Below are positions 3,514-35,421 of a stretch of DNA of 35,421 bases, piece after piece. The notes below the pieces were generated by a model, which had not been told where the DNA came from, ran no database searches, and saw nothing but the letters and a program-made list of their open reading frames with translations. Source of the DNA: Acidobacteriaceae bacterium (GTDB lineage Bacteria; Acidobacteriota; Terriglobia; Terriglobales; Acidobacteriaceae); contig PMWW01000060.1 in NCBI GenBank assembly GCA_003165795.1, positions 1-35,421 on the forward strand, given 5' to 3'. How positions within the stretch are numbered: position 1 is the stretch's first letter; each line of letters begins with the position of its first letter. The translations under genes were made by a program, and so were the position numbers.

Positions 3514-4773
3514 ATGTCAAATCATAATGTTTTGCGAGGCAAACGTTTGAAGCGCGTTGCCGTCCTTGTTCTCACTTCTCTCACCGTCCTCGCGGTGTCA
3601 TCGTGCGGCGGAAGTGGAAGTTCCACCACTGCGCCGAGCAACGTGCAGCATCGCGCGTTCATAACCAATACCTACTCGGGTAATCTGCAAATCGTAGACA
3701 CGCAGAACGATACCAGCCCGCTGACGGCTGAGAGTACGAACTCCGCCGGCCAGGTTGTGCCCGGCGTGCCGGTGACCATCGCGGTCGCAAGCTCGTTGAC
3801 CTTCGAGGTGCTGAGCCCCGACAAGAGCACGACGCTGACCTACGATCCCAACGCGTTGACGTTCTATTTTGTAGACAACTCAACCGAGGCGTCGAGTGGC
3901 AGCGTGGCCCTGCCCACCTATGCCGGGATGGCGCTATTCTCGCCCGATAGCACCATGGTATACGCGCCTACCCCCACCGTGTTGGTCAGCGGATCGCGCC
4001 CGGGAGCGGTGCAGGCCATCAATGTCGCCGATGCAGCCATCACCATCGCCTATGATGTTCCGTCAGCCCGCTACCTCGCACTTAGTCCCAGCGGCCAGTA
4101 TCTACTGGTATTCGCCGACAATTCAGACTCCGTATACCTGGTCAATCTGACTGCCAGTACACCCGTTCCGGTGGCCATCCCCGGTTTCGCCGCGCCGGTC
4201 AACGCATTTTTCAGCAGCGACAGCAACACTGCCTATGTGTTGAATTGCGGTCCGGAATGCGGATCGAGCGGCCCGGCTTCGGTGTCCGAGTTTAATATCC
4301 CTTCGCAAACCATCGAAGCCACGGTGCCAGTTGGGGGAGCCAGTGTGGGACTGCTGAATGGCAGCACGCTGTATGTCGCGGGCAGTCCGGTACCTCCGGG
4401 AACGACCTCAACCTTCGACGCGGTCAACGTCAGCAACATGACTCGCATCACTCCCAATTCCGTCGCCATCGGCGACGGTTACCACTCGACCATGGCGCTG
4501 TCGGCCAATAACAAGCTGTATATCGGAGCCAACACCTGCAGTAATACGGTCAATGGCTGCTTGTCGGTGGTGAACGTAGCGGACAATACCGCCGATCCGC
4601 CCTTTCCTCCTAATGGTGCTGTCACCAGCCTGCTGCCGATTACCGGACGCAACGTGATGTACGTCATCCAAGGAGGATACTTGGACATTTACAGCACCAC
4701 CACCGATAGCCTGCAGGGAACGCAGCTCTCGTTTACCGGAGCGCTGTACGGCATCGTGCAGGTGGATCCGTAG
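3514..4773 (+). CDS. Lipoprotein with YVTN/beta-propeller-like repeats
   Basis: A 419-residue exported protein. The N-terminus has basic residues (RGKRLKR), a hydrophobic stretch and the lipobox AVSSC followed by Gly/Ser, so it should be lipid-anchored at the cysteine. The rest is made of repeated strands of the form AFITNTYSGNLQIVDTQ, YLLVFADNSDSVYLVNL and AYVLNCGP. These resemble surface-layer YVTN beta-propeller blades. Such proteins are usually extracytoplasmic scaffolds; no catalytic motif is visible. It stands alone, divergent from the one-carbon enzyme gene, with an extended -10 promoter just upstream and a hairpin (4826-4845) downstream that may end transcription. Confidence 0.7.
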   Translation: MSNHNVLRGKRLKRVAVLVLTSLTVLAVSSCGGSGSSTTAPSNVQHRAFITNTYSGNLQIVDTQNDTSPLTAESTNSAGQVVPGVPVTIAVASSLTFEVLSPDKSTTLTYDPNALTFYFVDNSTEASSGSVALPTYAGMALFSPDSTMVYAPTPTVLVSGSRPGAVQAINVADAAITIAYDVPSARYLALSPSGQYLLVFADNSDSVYLVNLTASTPVPVAIPGFAAPVNAFFSSDSNTAYVLNCGPECGSSGPASVSEFNIPSQTIEATVPVGGASVGLLNGSTLYVAGSPVPPGTTSTFDAVNVSNMTRITPNSVAIGDGYHSTMALSANNKLYIGANTCSNTVNGCLSVVNVADNTADPPFPPNGAVTSLLPITGRNVMYVIQGGYLDIYSTTTDSLQGTQLSFTGALYGIVQVDP

Positions 4774-30726: not shown

Positions 30727-31533
30727 ATGCCGGTACTCTTCGAGCTACAGGACGCGTGCTTCGAGTACGATGGCATTCCCGCGCTGCGCGGATTGTCGCT
30801 GGAGATCGCGCAAGGCGAACGCGTCGCATTGCTGGGCGCAAACGGATCGGGAAAATCTACCCTGTTGCGCATTCTCGATGCCCTGCACTTCGCATCCAAA
30901 GGCTCGGTAAGCTTCGACGGCCAGAGGCTGACCCCCGAACTCTTCCAGCGCGATGACTACGCCCTGGCCTTTCGCCGCCGGGTCGCGCTGGTCTTCCAGA
31001 ATCCGGATGTGCAGCTCTTCAACCCCACGGTCTTTGACGAGGTCGCGTTTGGACCTTTGCAACTGCAGTGGCCGAAAGAAACAATTCTGTCCAAAGTGGC
31101 CGAGGCGATGGAACTCATGGGTGTTACCCATCTTCGCGATCGTCCGCCCTATCGGCTTTCCGGAGGCGAGAAGAAGCGCGTGGCGCTGGCGTCGGTGCTG
31201 GTGCTCGATCCCGACGTGCTGCTGCTGGACGAGCCGACGGCAACCCTCGATCCCCGCAGCCAGAGCCAGGTCGTCGATCTGATCCAGGAGTGGAAAGGTT
31301 CGTCGAAAACGGTGATCACGGCAACCCACCAGTTGGAGATTGTGGAAGACATTGCCGATCGCGTCTTCGTCTTGGAGGAAGGCAGAGTTGCAGCCACCGG
31401 AATTCCGCCCGAGATCCTCCCCAATTACGAGCTATTGTTGCGGGCGAACCTGGTGCATGCTCATCGCCACTCCCACGGCAGCGTCATCCACTCCCATCCG
31501 CACCTGCACTCGCACTCCAAGCACGAACACTAG
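30727..31533 (+). CDS. cbiO: Cobalt/nickel ECF transporter ATPase CbiO with His-rich tail
   Basis: A 268-residue ABC ATPase. Walker A is GANGSGKST (37-45), the Q-loop VFQNPDVQLFNPTV, the signature LSGGEKKRVAL (from 144), Walker B LLLDEP (Asp168, Glu169) and the H-loop His is 201. QNPDVQLFNPTVFDEVAFGP is typical of CbiO/EcfA. ATG 30727 is preferred: GGTGAG ends 8 nt upstream. The last 25 residues hold 11 histidines (HAHRHSHG..., HPHLHSHSKHEH), an unusual tail that could store or sense the transported metal at the cytoplasmic side. The stop TAG adjoins the repeat cluster that follows. Confidence 0.93.
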   Translation: MPVLFELQDACFEYDGIPALRGLSLEIAQGERVALLGANGSGKSTLLRILDALHFASKGSVSFDGQRLTPELFQRDDYALAFRRRVALVFQNPDVQLFNPTVFDEVAFGPLQLQWPKETILSKVAEAMELMGVTHLRDRPPYRLSGGEKKRVALASVLVLDPDVLLLDEPTATLDPRSQSQVVDLIQEWKGSSKTVITATHQLEIVEDIADRVFVLEEGRVAATGIPPEILPNYELLLRANLVHAHRHSHGSVIHSHPHLHSHSKHEH

Positions 31534-31736
31534 CCGGGCTGCTAAGAAACTTGATTTTCTGAGGGTTTTGAAGGGGCGCACCTTCAGGTGTGCCGTAAAG
31601 GCACTTAAGCCGGGCTGCTGAAAACTCGATTTTCCGACTTTTGAAGGGGCGTACCTTCAGGTGTGCCGTAAGAGCACTTATTCTTGTCATTCCGAGGCGG
31701 CTTCAGCCGCCGAGGAATCTCGTTTTCAGCAGGTTG
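31534..31736. repeat. Cluster of palindromic repeats between cbiO and the CPBP protease gene
   Basis: Two tandem copies (~73-bp period) of TTTTGAAGGGGCG-hairpin-CCGTAA lie at 31566-31598 and 31639-31671, with stems at 31575-31594 and 31648-31667, both with TTCA loops. A third hairpin, GGCGGC-TTCA-GCCGCC, is at 31696-31711. CTGCTGAAAAC (31615-31625) and GTTTTCAGCAG (31722-31732) are perfect inverted repeats and resemble the end of the element at 12-180. A single-stop region between convergent genes; the hairpins may also end both transcripts. Confidence 0.7.
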
Positions 31737-32606
31737 TTAGCCCGGATATTTCACCTGGCGCAGCCACTTAGCGAAGAGGAACCACCAGATCAGAAATACC
31801 GCAACGTTGGGCCAGCCCGCTTCTACCCCGAACGGCATTCCGGTCAACCACGCGGGACCGTGAAAGTTCCCTTGCAGTAAATGCCCTTTGCCCATCAGCC
31901 CGCTGCTGGGCACGCCGTAGAAATACACTTCGCCCCAGTTCCATCCGGCGTGCAAACCAAGCGGCATCCAGAGATCGCCGGTTCGCCGTAAAAGGAAACA
32001 TGCAATCAGCCCAAAGCCAAAAACCGTGAGCAGGCCGAGTACGGTCCAGCCGGGATTGAAGGCATGTGCCGCGCCCATCAAGGCCGAAGTCGTCAGCGCC
32101 GCCGGCCAGAATCCGATCGCACCGGTCAGCGTGAATTGCAGGTAGCCGCGATAAAAAAACTCCTCGAAGATCGCGGCGATGATGAGCGCTACCGCCCACA
32201 AGATCGCGTTCTTCAGGATTTCAATGCCGCGCAGCTGCAAGGTTCCAACCGAGTACGCCCCTGCCAGTCGCAGAGAAGCCAGCAGCAGGCTGAGCGAAAC
32301 AAAGCTGATGACCCAGGCCTGCCAGAACTGAACATTCATCGCCCGTCGCCACGGCAAGCCGTACTCGGCAATGCTGCGGCCTTCAATCTTGGCCATTGTC
32401 CCCGCCGCCAGCAGTACCACGGTCGCGAGAATCAGCGTATAAACGATAGCGAAGATAGGACTACCTGTGTCGACTTGTCGCCCACGTGAAGCGGCTTCGG
32501 CGATTTTGTATGCTAAGTAGCCAAACGCGCCCAGCAGCGCGAAGTAAATCAGCAACCGCCAACCGGCGCGAAGGCCATTGGGCCCCTGCAGAATGTTGTG
32601 CCGCAC
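31737..32606 (-). CDS. CPBP-family intramembrane glutamic endopeptidase
   Basis: A 289-residue multi-pass membrane protein with about seven or eight membrane segments. It has the Abi/CPBP (PF02517) motifs: EEFFYRG with Glu148-Glu149 and Arg153, then AHAFNPGW with His181, then LGLHAGWNWG with the second His. Members are Rce1-like proteases; substrates of bacterial ones are mostly unknown. The start is GTG 32606 with AGAAGGG about 8 nt upstream. It is transcribed towards cbiO and ends in the repeat cluster. It is the last intact chromosomal-type gene before the plasmid relic. Confidence 0.9.
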   Translation of the reverse strand: MRHNILQGPNGLRAGWRLLIYFALLGAFGYLAYKIAEAASRGRQVDTGSPIFAIVYTLILATVVLLAAGTMAKIEGRSIAEYGLPWRRAMNVQFWQAWVISFVSLSLLLASLRLAGAYSVGTLQLRGIEILKNAILWAVALIIAAIFEEFFYRGYLQFTLTGAIGFWPAALTTSALMGAAHAFNPGWTVLGLLTVFGFGLIACFLLRRTGDLWMPLGLHAGWNWGEVYFYGVPSSGLMGKGHLLQGNFHGPAWLTGMPFGVEAGWPNVAVFLIWWFLFAKWLRQVKYPG

Positions 32607-33006
32607 AGGCTAGCCCTTCTCTCTTCACGGTTATTTCTTGATTTCGGGAAATCCAAGCGACCCTGCTACCAAGTCCTTTTTTCGTCAGGAACCCATCCGC
32701 GAACTCAAGGAGCAACTATAGTGCTGGCTGCTCCTCAGCGCCATGCTGCCGAATGACAAATCGTGCCCTACCCTTACGGCGATATCGGATAGCCACCCGA
32801 TAGCCGACGAGTAGCAGCCGGTCCGCAACCAAGTTACTAACAGAAATCGGCGAGCTATCCAGTATCAGGAAGCTATCAGATACCAGATAGCTATCGATTC
32901 ACCATCGAGCATCGGAACGTTATCCATTAGCTTTCTGAATTCCCTTGAGTAGCATCAACATGTCGGCTATAGTCCGCGCACCGCATACAACATTTAGTGT
33001 TCTGGC
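32607..33006. other. Boundary region with iteron-like repeats upstream of parA
   Basis: 400 bp without a gene. AGCTATC starts at 32853, 32871 and 32889, exactly 18 bp apart; the first two copies match at about 13 of 18 positions. On the other strand GATAGC occurs at 32788 and 32799, 11 bp apart, and GATAGCTATC (32886-32895) is a 10-bp palindrome. Tandem repeats of this period before plasmid replication and partition genes are usually iterons or a partition site. The exact chromosome/plasmid border is not visible. Confidence 0.6.
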
Positions 33007-33703
33007 ATGCCGACCATAGTATTTGCAAGTCCAAAAGGTGGCGTCGGCAAGTCTACAGCCGCCGTACTGCTCGCGACTGAACTGGCTGGTTTCGGCGCAG
33101 GCGTGACGATGATTGACGCCGATCCGAACAAACCTCTCTAACAATGGGCAAGGCGGCCCGGTAAGCCCGAAAATCTCACCGTCCTGGCCGATGTTGCGGA
33201 AGATTCCATTATCGACACGATTGAATCCGCAGCGCTCAAAACGTCTTTCGTGATCGTTGACCTTGAGGGCACCGCCTCAATGATGGTCGGATATGCCATG
33301 AGCCGCGCCGATCTCGTCATCATTCCCGTGCAGGGATCACATCTTGACGCGACCGAAGCCGCAAAGGCCATAAAGCTGGTTCGCGCGCAGGAGCGGGTAT
33401 TCAAGCGCACCATCCGATATACGATTTTGTTCACGCGCACGAGCTCCGCCATCCGAACGCGGACATTACACAGCATCGAATCTGAATTCGCGGCGAATCA
33501 GATCCCCATGCTCAACGCACAGCTCAATGAGCGGGATGCGTACCGCGCGCTCTTCGCGTTTGGCGGAACGCTGTCGGGGCTTGATCCGGCGCAGGTTTCC
33601 AATATCGCCGCCGCTTTGCTCAACGCGCGCGTTTTTACCCAGGAGGTTGTGACCATGCTCAAAACAACAAGCGTCTGCCGCTAAGGCAGAAGAAGTAGCC
33701 TGA
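33007..33703 (+). pseudogene. parA: ParA-family plasmid partition ATPase, broken
   Basis: Deviant Walker A ATPase of plasmid partition, ~230 residues if repaired. MPTIVFASPKGGVGKST carries the Walker A (10-17), and MIDADPNKPL follows. Codon 45 is then TAA (33139-33141) where relatives have Ser; the same frame continues with QWARRPGKPENLTVLADV, FVIVDLEGTAS and ADLVIIPVQGS to the end. A second lesion is an extra A in the aaaa run at about 33660-33664; removing it restores the alanine/glutamate-rich tail QASAAKAEEVA and the stop TGA 33701-33703, which overlaps the next start. Restart inside the gene (e.g. GTG 33250) would lack Walker A. It is therefore almost certainly non-functional. Confidence 0.85.
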
Positions 33704-34055
33704 TGACGCAGCGGGCCAGCATATTTGACAATGACCTGAAAGTGGACGTTAGTGATTTTTCGCCCAAGAAACGCCCTGACATTAAAGCGCCCACCCAGGA
33801 GCAAGTAAGGGCGGTAGCCGAGGCTGCCAACTTCCCCAAGCCGCCAGGCGCGGGACACATCTTTGAAACCCACGACAAAACGCGCGGCCCGCGTCTACCG
33901 GGACCGGCCGTAACGTCCAGTTCAATGTGAAAGCGTCACAGGAAACCGTTGAAGCATTCTACGCGGTGACGGAGGCGCATGCGGGCTGGGTCTTGGGCTA
34001 TACGCTGGAGCGAGCGATCGCAGCGCTCAAGCGCGAGCTGGAAAGCGAAGCATGA
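33703..34055 (+). pseudogene. Small plasmid partition/stability protein, frameshifted twice
   Basis: A short basic protein overlapping parA (TGATG) and repA (ATGA). It reads MTQRASIFDNDLKVDVSDF...VRAVAEAANFP, then shifts. Removing one C from cccc at 33834-33837 gives SRQARDTSLKPTTKRAARVYR. Removing one G from ggg at 33900-33902 then gives TGRNVQFNVKASQETVEAFY, AHAGWVLGYTLERAIAALKREL and the stop TGA at 34053-34055. The repaired ~116-residue product has a basic linker and a ribbon-helix-helix-like C-terminus, the layout of ParB-like partners in parA-x-repA operons of broad-host plasmids. As it stands it ends after 75 residues at 33930. Confidence 0.7.
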
Positions 34056-35132
34056 CTCGCGCCCGGTTTTACAATCCCCAGTTCGATCTCTTCCTGCCAA
34101 CCATCGTCGATCTGCGGTTTCGTGACCAGAAAGACACGATGGAGCGCCCGTTCTTTTCGCTGTCAAAGTCGAAACGGATGAAACCCATCCAGTACGTCAA
34201 CGAGAATGACGGGGTATTCGTCACCGTGCAGCCGCATCAGGACTATGGCATGGCGACCATTTGGGACGCCGATATCCTGATCTGGGCGGCATCGGTCCTG
34301 TGCGACATGAAGAATCGCGGAACGAATGACATACCTCGCGAGACTCAAATTCCAGCCTCACGATGTTCTCAAAGCCATCGCTCGCTCCACGGGCGGCAAA
34401 GACTACGCTCAGCTGCGTGATTCGCTCGAACGGCTCAAGACCACGGTCGTGACGACCAACATTCGCGTAAAGCGCAGCCAAAAAAACACGATGTTCAGCT
34501 GGATTGACGGCTGGGAGGATCTGATTGATTCACAAACCAAGGAGAGCAGGGGGCTCACGCTCACCGTCTCCGACTGGTTCTACCGGGGCGTGATGGAAGA
34601 CGGCGGTCTTCTTTCCATCGATCCGGCGTATTTTTCCATCACCGGCGGGCGGGAGCGCTGGCTCTACCGGGTAGCGCGAAAACATGCCGGCGGTGATGGC
34701 GAAGACGGCTTTGCGATCTCCATGCCGACCCTCTTTGAGAAGTCGGGCGCGGAGGGAACGTACCGGCGGTTCAAGTTCGAGATGCTCCGGGTCGTAGAGC
34801 GCAATGATCTTCCCGGATTCTCACTGTCTGTCCGAGAGGGAAGCGAAGGCGAGCCGCTGGTTCATATGGTAAAGCGCGAGTATGCAGGGGAGGGGGCACC
34901 GCAGGCGTTTCAGCCGCAGACCAAGCGGGATTGGCGTTCTTCGCAAAAGCATCCAGTCAAAACCATGCCCGAACGCGATCTGCCGCTGCTTAGCCCCATC
35001 ATGCGGAATCTTTCAGAGCGGACGATAAGCCAAGTCCGCATCGATTTTCCTGGCTGGGACATTTATGCGCTCAAAGCGGAGTTCGACGACTGGATTGACG
35101 AGGACCCGGCTCGCAAGCCACAGAGGCCATGA
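34052..35132 (+). pseudogene. repA: Plasmid replication initiator RepA (RPA family), frameshifted
   Basis: Replication initiator of the PF10134-type RepA family, about 359 residues if repaired. The first part (34052-~34338) has RFYNPQFDLFLPTIVDL, RPFFSLSKSKR and WDADILIWAASVLCDMKNRGTNDIPR. One extra base in cgcgaga at 34338-34340 then shifts the frame. The rest (from ~34341) gives RLKFQPHDVLKAIARSTGGKDY, a linker, WIDGWEDLIDSQT, then SDWFYRGVMEDGGLLSIDPAYFSITGGRERWLYRVARKHAG and GTYRRFKFEMLRVV with winged-helix features. The 3' end stops at an abrupt junction with the integrase, near 35120-35130. The start overlaps its upstream neighbour (ATGA). Loss of a working initiator fits an integrated relic. 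Confidence 0.82.
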
Positions 35133-35421
35133 TAGCGATGATGGCCCGGTCGCGCAGGCCTTTAACATCGACTTCAACCCTGACGTTCCCCCCGTGCTTC
35201 TTCGGGATCTTGACTTCACGGATTACCGCTATCGAATTGAGCAGTTCCCGCATCTGCTGCGCCTCCAGAATCGGCGTTATCCCGATCTGCCTGCTGAATC
35301 TCGGCCCCTTGACGAAGAGGGCCGGGTTATCAGGAACGGCCTGCTTTATCACCAGCCAGTTGAACAGACCGCGCAGCGCCGCGAGGTGCTGCTTCACAGA
35401 AGGAGCGGTGAGCGACATGCT
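35121..35421 (-). pseudogene. Tyrosine integrase/recombinase, truncated (runs off the window)
   Basis: A leftward frame beginning beyond the window edge. The visible part has SVKQHLAALRGLFNWLV, VPDNPALFVKGPR, GITPILEAQQMRELLNSI and GLRDRAIIAIM: the core-binding SAM-like domain and the start of the catalytic domain of a XerC/phage-type tyrosine recombinase. The match stops after IAIM (about 35128). The following residues (SVACEPGPRQ...) are antisense to repA, so the catalytic Arg-His-Arg-Tyr part is missing. ATG 35418 is the first Met in view, but relatives extend further upstream. The gene faces repA tail to tail. Confidence 0.75.

Follow-up and report, generated by a model that had tools for sequence, protein, structure and literature searches.

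A word array before a decayed parA gene in an Acidobacteriaceae contig is probably a relic plasmid partition site, and a few residues of its binding protein may determine the word

Short words repeated at regular spacing stand before a decayed parA gene in an Acidobacteriaceae bacterium, and the question is what they did in the element from which they came. The window analysed here comprises contig C143 in full (35,421 bases, in a genome of 4.95 Mb and 208 contigs), most of which is occupied by long open reading frames. A sequence-only reading had proposed either an iteron set of a replication origin or a centromere-like partition site, surviving from an integrated plasmid. Here, we describe the array, its decayed neighbors and its counterparts in related loci, and find that it is very probably the relic partition site (centromere and operator) of a type Ib-like ParA + RHH module, left with parA, a partner gene and repA as a plasmid-like element decayed, rather than a set of RepA iterons. 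For plasmid incompatibility, it is still an open problem how a centromere can change jointly with the protein that binds it, and the ParA-RHH family supplies about 100 natural arrays with matched partner proteins.

The repeat coordinates, the 18-bp and 11-bp spacings and the 10-bp palindrome of the sequence-only reading were all confirmed. AGCTATC starts at 32853, 32871 and 32889 (two exact 18-bp steps) with a minus-strand copy at 32886-32892, and these four are its only copies in the whole window on both strands. GATAGC lies at 32788 and 32799 (11 bp apart) and again at 32886, and the 10-bp palindrome GATAGCTATC (32886-32895) ends the right cluster. Steps in the array are 7, 11 and 18 bp, with TATC cores at 32856, 32863 and 32874 stepping 7 + 11 within the first 18-bp step. 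Counted by GATA/TATC cores, the array stretches over 32781-32924, with 11 cores per 150 bp compared to at most 5 elsewhere, and a gap of about 80 bp separates it from the parA relic. The array and its parts are as follows:

32781-32927, no strand: array of GATAGC, GATA and GCTA words in both orientations, a putative partition centromere and operator (evidence: clustering, and a counterpart in locus L012)
32781-32804, no strand: left cluster, with two overlapping GATATC and two GATAGC at an 11-bp step (contig C18 repeats part of it at 89% over 37-38 bases)
32853-32895, no strand: right cluster, AGCTATC three times at an 18-bp step, interspersed with TATC (32863) and GATA (32879), and the terminal 10-bp palindrome

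The array piece in contig C18 of the same genome (3,051 bases; locus L003, 134-174) matches 32780-32817 at 89% identity across 37 bases and adjoins AbiEi and AbiEii toxin-antitoxin-type genes; it may be another remnant of an element of this kind. In the window, the last intact genes are separated by an imperfect tandem repeat with a 73-bp unit (31532-31680; 2 copies, 86% matches), whose word is unrelated to the array.

Coincidental words in an A+T-richer stretch could look similar. By number AGCTATC is ordinary (4 copies compared to 1.97 expected, with 16 of 100 shuffles reaching 4), and G+C content is lowest at the array region (0.522 at 32500-32999, the minimum among 500-base windows from 28000 onward). 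The clustering, however, is far from ordinary: 6 of the window's 24 GATAGC/GCTATC fall inside the 115 bp of 32781-32895, other 115-bp spans hold at most 2, and none of 300 first-order Markov windows reaches 6 per 115 bp (largest 3). A chance origin, extremely improbable, is also contradicted by locus L012 (described below), where this word forms a longer array at the corresponding place. GATAGC is the most clustered hexamer in the window, and repetitiveness in the 300 bp upstream of parA is higher than expected from dinucleotide shuffling (p 0.001 with 1000 shuffles). Tandem Repeats Finder, run on the window, did not list the array.

Downstream of the array lie the following features:

32935-33006, plus strand: parA leader (63 of 72 bases identical to locus L192)
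33007-33684, plus strand: parA relic, Walker-type ATPase, with an internal TAA at 33139-33141
33703-34055, plus strand: small partner gene relic, with N-terminal, middle and RHH-like parts in different frames (counterpart L012 5351-5713)
34052-35132, plus strand: repA relic, RPA family PF10134, split over two frames
35071-35421, minus strand: XerD/XerC tyrosine recombinase-like fragment, cut by the contig end (E 1e-6, far under curated cut-offs)

The partition module in the window is dead, because parA, the partner gene and repA are all broken; some of these breaks could be mimicked by sequencing errors. The parA relic aligns over residues 1-225, and the leader contains one weak promoter-like match (32945-32973; 0.6 expected in shuffles). 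A Pfam search with the recombinase-like fragment gave no match, nor did comparison with the L167 integrase. The earlier proposal of an integrated plasmid relic thus holds for the relic, with its TAA in parA and frame-split partner and repA; insertion into the chromosome is likely but unproven, because the relic touches the contig end. As for an array in chromosomes free of the relic, the other eight genomes of the genus contain nothing that matches the 367 bases preceding parA; no empty site was located in them, the flanking CAAX-protease gene having matches at paralogue level only (best 49%). Three loci (L006-L008) with distant RPA RepA, 29-31% identical, in genome G002 place such replicons in the window's genus.

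Relatives were sought by scanning genome contigs with the repA relic, yielding 62. The top one, L012 (70% identical; Terriglobia MAG), has parA, a 120-residue partner gene and repA all open. Upstream of its parA start at 4650 are 14 GATA/TATC cores at 4402-4606, 7 of them within GATAGC, and its eleven TATC cores follow at steps of 11, 18, 25, 11, 47, 11, 18, 11, 29 and 11 bp. Local alignment of the window and L012 arrays scores 46, with shuffles at 30 or less. Base-by-base descent of the two arrays from a common source is likely rather than proven, because same-word arrays from non-orthologous loci score up to 41 against the window array and the global identity of the whole arrays (106/168) is inside the shuffle range. 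In a third genome (G453, locus L193), 13 GATA cores form the same kind of array at the end of a contig. A similar array, looked for in related elements, was found before parA in L012 and in other ParA-RHH loci.

The L012 ParA (233 residues) starts at the Walker motif region and is a Walker-type ParA without an N-terminal DNA-binding domain. Its nearest solved relatives (PDB) are 5u1g ParA and TP228 ParF, and its match to the VirC1 model is weak (71.8 bits, cut-off 313). The partner is predicted from its sequence to have an RHH fold, an assignment made because of its strand pattern and the covariation of array word with strand residues. In the monomer model of the L012 partner, the N-terminus has low confidence, two C-terminal helices are confident and no strand is assigned. 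Foldseek with this model returned nothing at E<=0.001; a second fold comparison was weak, with MazE-mt1 antitoxin (best Z 4.0) tied with a plant TCP domain. The partner alignment matched designed proteins only in the PDB (best E 0.054) and no significant family in Pfam and NCBIfam. An F-x-S-R motif is invariant in 9/9 A2 members and not so in the 26 of A3.

For a family survey, ParA relatives were drawn from plasmids, viral contigs and genomes of the window's phylum. Subfamily ParA was present in 95 loci, 92 of them with an adjacent candidate partner gene (permissive profile). Removal of one locus with too little upstream DNA left 94, reduced to 69 at 85% ParA identity; the counts leave out L153 (a copy of the window), loci with a ParA score <150 and loci of other ParA subfamilies (L014, L015, L029, L082 and L083), whose ParA is under the profile cut-off. 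The 300 bp before parA are repetitive (p<=0.01) in 72 of 94 loci and in 53 of the 69 non-redundant loci, with no significant array at this threshold in the other 16. Scored with 100 shuffles by position relative to the parA start, repetitive windows number 9/66 at -1200, 6/67 at -900, 9/69 at -600, 12/69 at -450, 50/69 at -300 to 0, 39/69 at -150 to 150, 7/69 at 0 to 300 and 2/69 at 300 to 600, compared to 15/138 random windows. None of the five loci of other ParA subfamilies has a TATC array upstream; L029 and L014 have other repeated words there.

Five-base words in the 69-locus set recur at 11 bp (4.0x median), 18 bp (2.8x) and 29 bp (2.2x), and also at 10, 51, 22, 36 and 40 bp, whereas random windows lack 11/18-bp recurrence and have a three-base coding rhythm instead. 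The steps appear again in 25 further loci (11 bp 5.2x, 18 bp 3.5x, 36 bp 8.9x), and the 18-bp step of the window is therefore a family trait. It is clearest among loci with Asn at the center of the partner's strand (11 bp 5.9x, 18 bp 3.4x, n=35); both steps are weak in non-Asn arrays (1.9x each, n=20). The words themselves vary, with GATAGC/AGCTAC in many loci, GTAGAC in Acidiphilium, GTGAGC in Acuticoccus, and ACCGGA and GGAACC in some viral contigs. Viral-contig ParA loci L110, L116, L118-L120, L125, L126, L138 and L139 have no significant array before parA; partners of these loci are mostly short with a Q-S-R strand, and their partition site may lie elsewhere.

The survey bears on whether the array is a set of replication-origin iterons bound by the RPA-type RepA of the lost plasmid. 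Repeated words ahead of replication operons are typical of iteron plasmids, and the RPA-family repA relic is 1.1 kb downstream of the array. The repeats, however, do not go with RPA RepA. A GATA/GCTA array precedes parA in L080, L181, L167, L169, L180 and L179, where the stretch has a non-RPA replication gene (all but L179) or none; these loci were judged on stretches, not whole records, and for some an RPA gene elsewhere is possible. Conversely, the array is absent from plasmids L082 and L083, which have a RepA ~54% identical and a ParA of another subfamily. The array word instead tracks the RHH strand. Origin iterons are thus very unlikely, and of the two functions first proposed for the repeats it is the centromere-like site that stands, with arrays in related ParA-RHH loci and a word that follows RHH residues.

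A narrower function is that of an operator only, serving the RHH protein to repress parA, with partition depending on a site elsewhere. The array does abut the parA leader, yet array extents (median 262 bp in 53 loci; ~2.3 kb in Cupriavidus) are long for an operator, and upstream repeats of known type Ib systems combine the centromere and operator roles, according to passages of two papers (PMC9499535, PMC5016525). This makes a pure operator very unlikely, and a combined partition site and operator remains the preferred reading.

As a partition site, the array would be bound at its GATAGC-like words by partner dimers, each inserting its two-stranded ribbon into the DNA major groove. The words bound would be spaced by 11 bp, roughly a helical turn, or by 18 bp, in either orientation, and the dimers would coat the array. 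The N-terminal tails of the partner would stimulate the ParA ATPase, moving the plasmid over the nucleoid, and dimers bound next to the parA promoter would in addition keep the operon repressed. For this module, we infer the RHH fold, binding to DNA, stimulation of the ATPase, repression and partition. In type Ib systems, as excerpts of three papers describe them, a small RHH protein binds upstream repeats, represses the operon and activates the ParA ATPase by its N-terminal tail (PMC5016525, PMC9499535, PMC7308502). Repeats, direct and inverted, precede the par operon in the window, in L012 and in 53/69 loci.

Among known systems, parFGH of TP228 (type Ib: ParF ATPase, ParG RHH protein, parH site) resembles the window's module in its short ParA, with ParF among the two best PDB matches, and in its partner gene behind parA. 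The parH site is likewise described as an upstream array of degenerate short boxes (PMC7308502). Unlike parFGH, the ParA-RHH family has other words, 11/18-bp spacing and an operon often continuing into repA, and sequence searches of PDB, Pfam and NCBIfam place the window-family partner in no family. The delta-omega system of pSM19035 similarly has an RHH protein on short-repeat arrays in both orientations, overlapping promoters, as outlined in a section of PMC9499535; its heptads are contiguous 7-bp units, whereas the words of the window family are spaced and differ between plasmids. In parMRC of R1 (type II), 11-bp repeats upstream of the operon are bound by an RHH protein, as portions of two papers state (PMC9426499, PMC5016525). 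Its motor, however, is actin-like, and a type II ParMRC assignment was rejected as actin-like ParM is absent and the motor of the window family is a Walker-type ParA. In the Arc repressor of phage P22, Gln9, Asn11 and Arg13 contact a TAGA box (partial text of PMC12645479). Arc has the same Q-x-N-x-basic strand order, and TAGA is near the TAGC/GATA of the window family; unlike the window's module, it is a transcription repressor with one 21-bp operator and no ParA. The Agrobacterium pair VirC1/VirC2 is linked through the weak VirC1 match, and VirC2 is an RHH protein; the pair differs in its T-DNA transfer function.

Word profiles were compared with strand positions 2, 4 and 6 (putatively DNA-facing) and with positions 1, 3 and 5 (core-facing), with ParA and the remainder of the partner domain as controls. 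For positions 2, 4 and 6 the partial Mantel correlation is 0.555 (p 0.001, n 55), 0.520 with all 67 loci and 0.540 without the window and L012, compared to 0.084 (n 55), 0.078 and 0.109 (p 0.023) for positions 1, 3 and 5. With ParA as the only control, the core-facing positions are slightly above zero (0.143, p 0.004), and word profile against ParA distance alone gives 0.388. Positions 2, 4 and 6, the equivalents of Gln9, Asn11 and Arg13 in Arc, probably face DNA in the ParA-RHH family. GATA or GCTA is in the top two words for 28/30 QNK strands and 5/37 other strands, and for 30/35 strands with central Asn compared to 3/32 others (30/36 and 3/31 with L081 corrected); relatedness is handled by the partial Mantel tests only, and the Fisher tests ignore it. 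L081 has central Asn, yet its word is CTGACA, and other Asn strands with other words are L075 (GTGA), L087 (GGTA/ACCA), L140 and L114. Ser-with-Lys strands in the discovery set have AGAC counts of 10 (L077), 7 (L076), 9 (L084), 2 (L079) and 0 (L113). Strand read-outs of L092, L098 and L227 are uncertain. Comparison of loci thus establishes the array, its conserved place, the family-wide spacing rule and the covariation of word with strand residues; across about 100 relatives, it suggests that the word used may depend on a few residues in the array-binding protein.

Held-out loci, taken from two overlapping genome sets (398 of the family, 397 of the order), support the word rule in part. The rule fixed beforehand, QN[KR] to GATA/GCTA, was not significant (5/7 compared to 7/16, p 0.37). 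The Asn rule gave 11/13 compared to 1/10 (p 0.0006), though picked after the rows were known; Asn was already the strongest single position in the discovery set. Without L201, which is L192 again, the Asn rule gives 11/13 compared to 1/9 (p 0.0015). Reduction of the 22 readable held-out loci to 15 at 85% ParA identity gives 8/10 compared to 1/5 (two-sided p ~0.09).

A natural swap is present within the window's own family in L192 (genome G637), whose ParA is closer to the window's (184/225) than that of L012 (164). Its strand, NVQFSVKA, has Ser in place of Asn, and it carries an AGACC array instead of GATA/GCTA: its 300 bp contain 6 AGAC, 9 GACC and 3 GATA, compared to 0, 1 and 11 in the window. 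The two arrays share 101/168 positions globally (shuffle mean 101.0), with a local score of 27 (largest of 500 shuffles, 26). The partner domains differ at 11/47 places, so the three putative contact residues contribute a single change, Ser, alongside others elsewhere in the domain. Another locus, L223 (NRQFSAKA), has AGAC as its top word, with modest repetitiveness (p 0.030).

These comparisons make it reasonably probable that the family follows a centromere code, in which DNA-facing RHH strand residues, chiefly the central one, would set the word (Asn: GATA/GCTA; Ser with Lys: mostly AGAC) with the 11/18-bp spacing kept. A whole centromere could then be rewritten alongside one contact-residue change, as L192 and the window suggest, so that a plasmid leaves its incompatibility group. 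Between these two, leader and ParA are alike, whereas the array differs and so does a single one of the three putative contact residues, making the question testable by a single-residue swap. Among the matches listed in searches of open papers, none dealt with such a code or with the site of the ParA-RHH family, a result short of proof that no such paper exists. A word rule would aid the prediction of partition sites and compatibility in uncharacterised plasmids and plasmid-like phages.

A giant same-word array of ~2.3 kb stands before parA in the Cupriavidus malaysiensis plasmid NZ_CP017756.1 (L180 1-2360; L233 1978-4276). It has 58 GATAGC/GCTATC in 2.36 kb, whereas the remaining 3.2 kb of the locus (L180) contain 1, and consists of tandem units of ~151 and ~171 bp, resembling a small satellite centromere.
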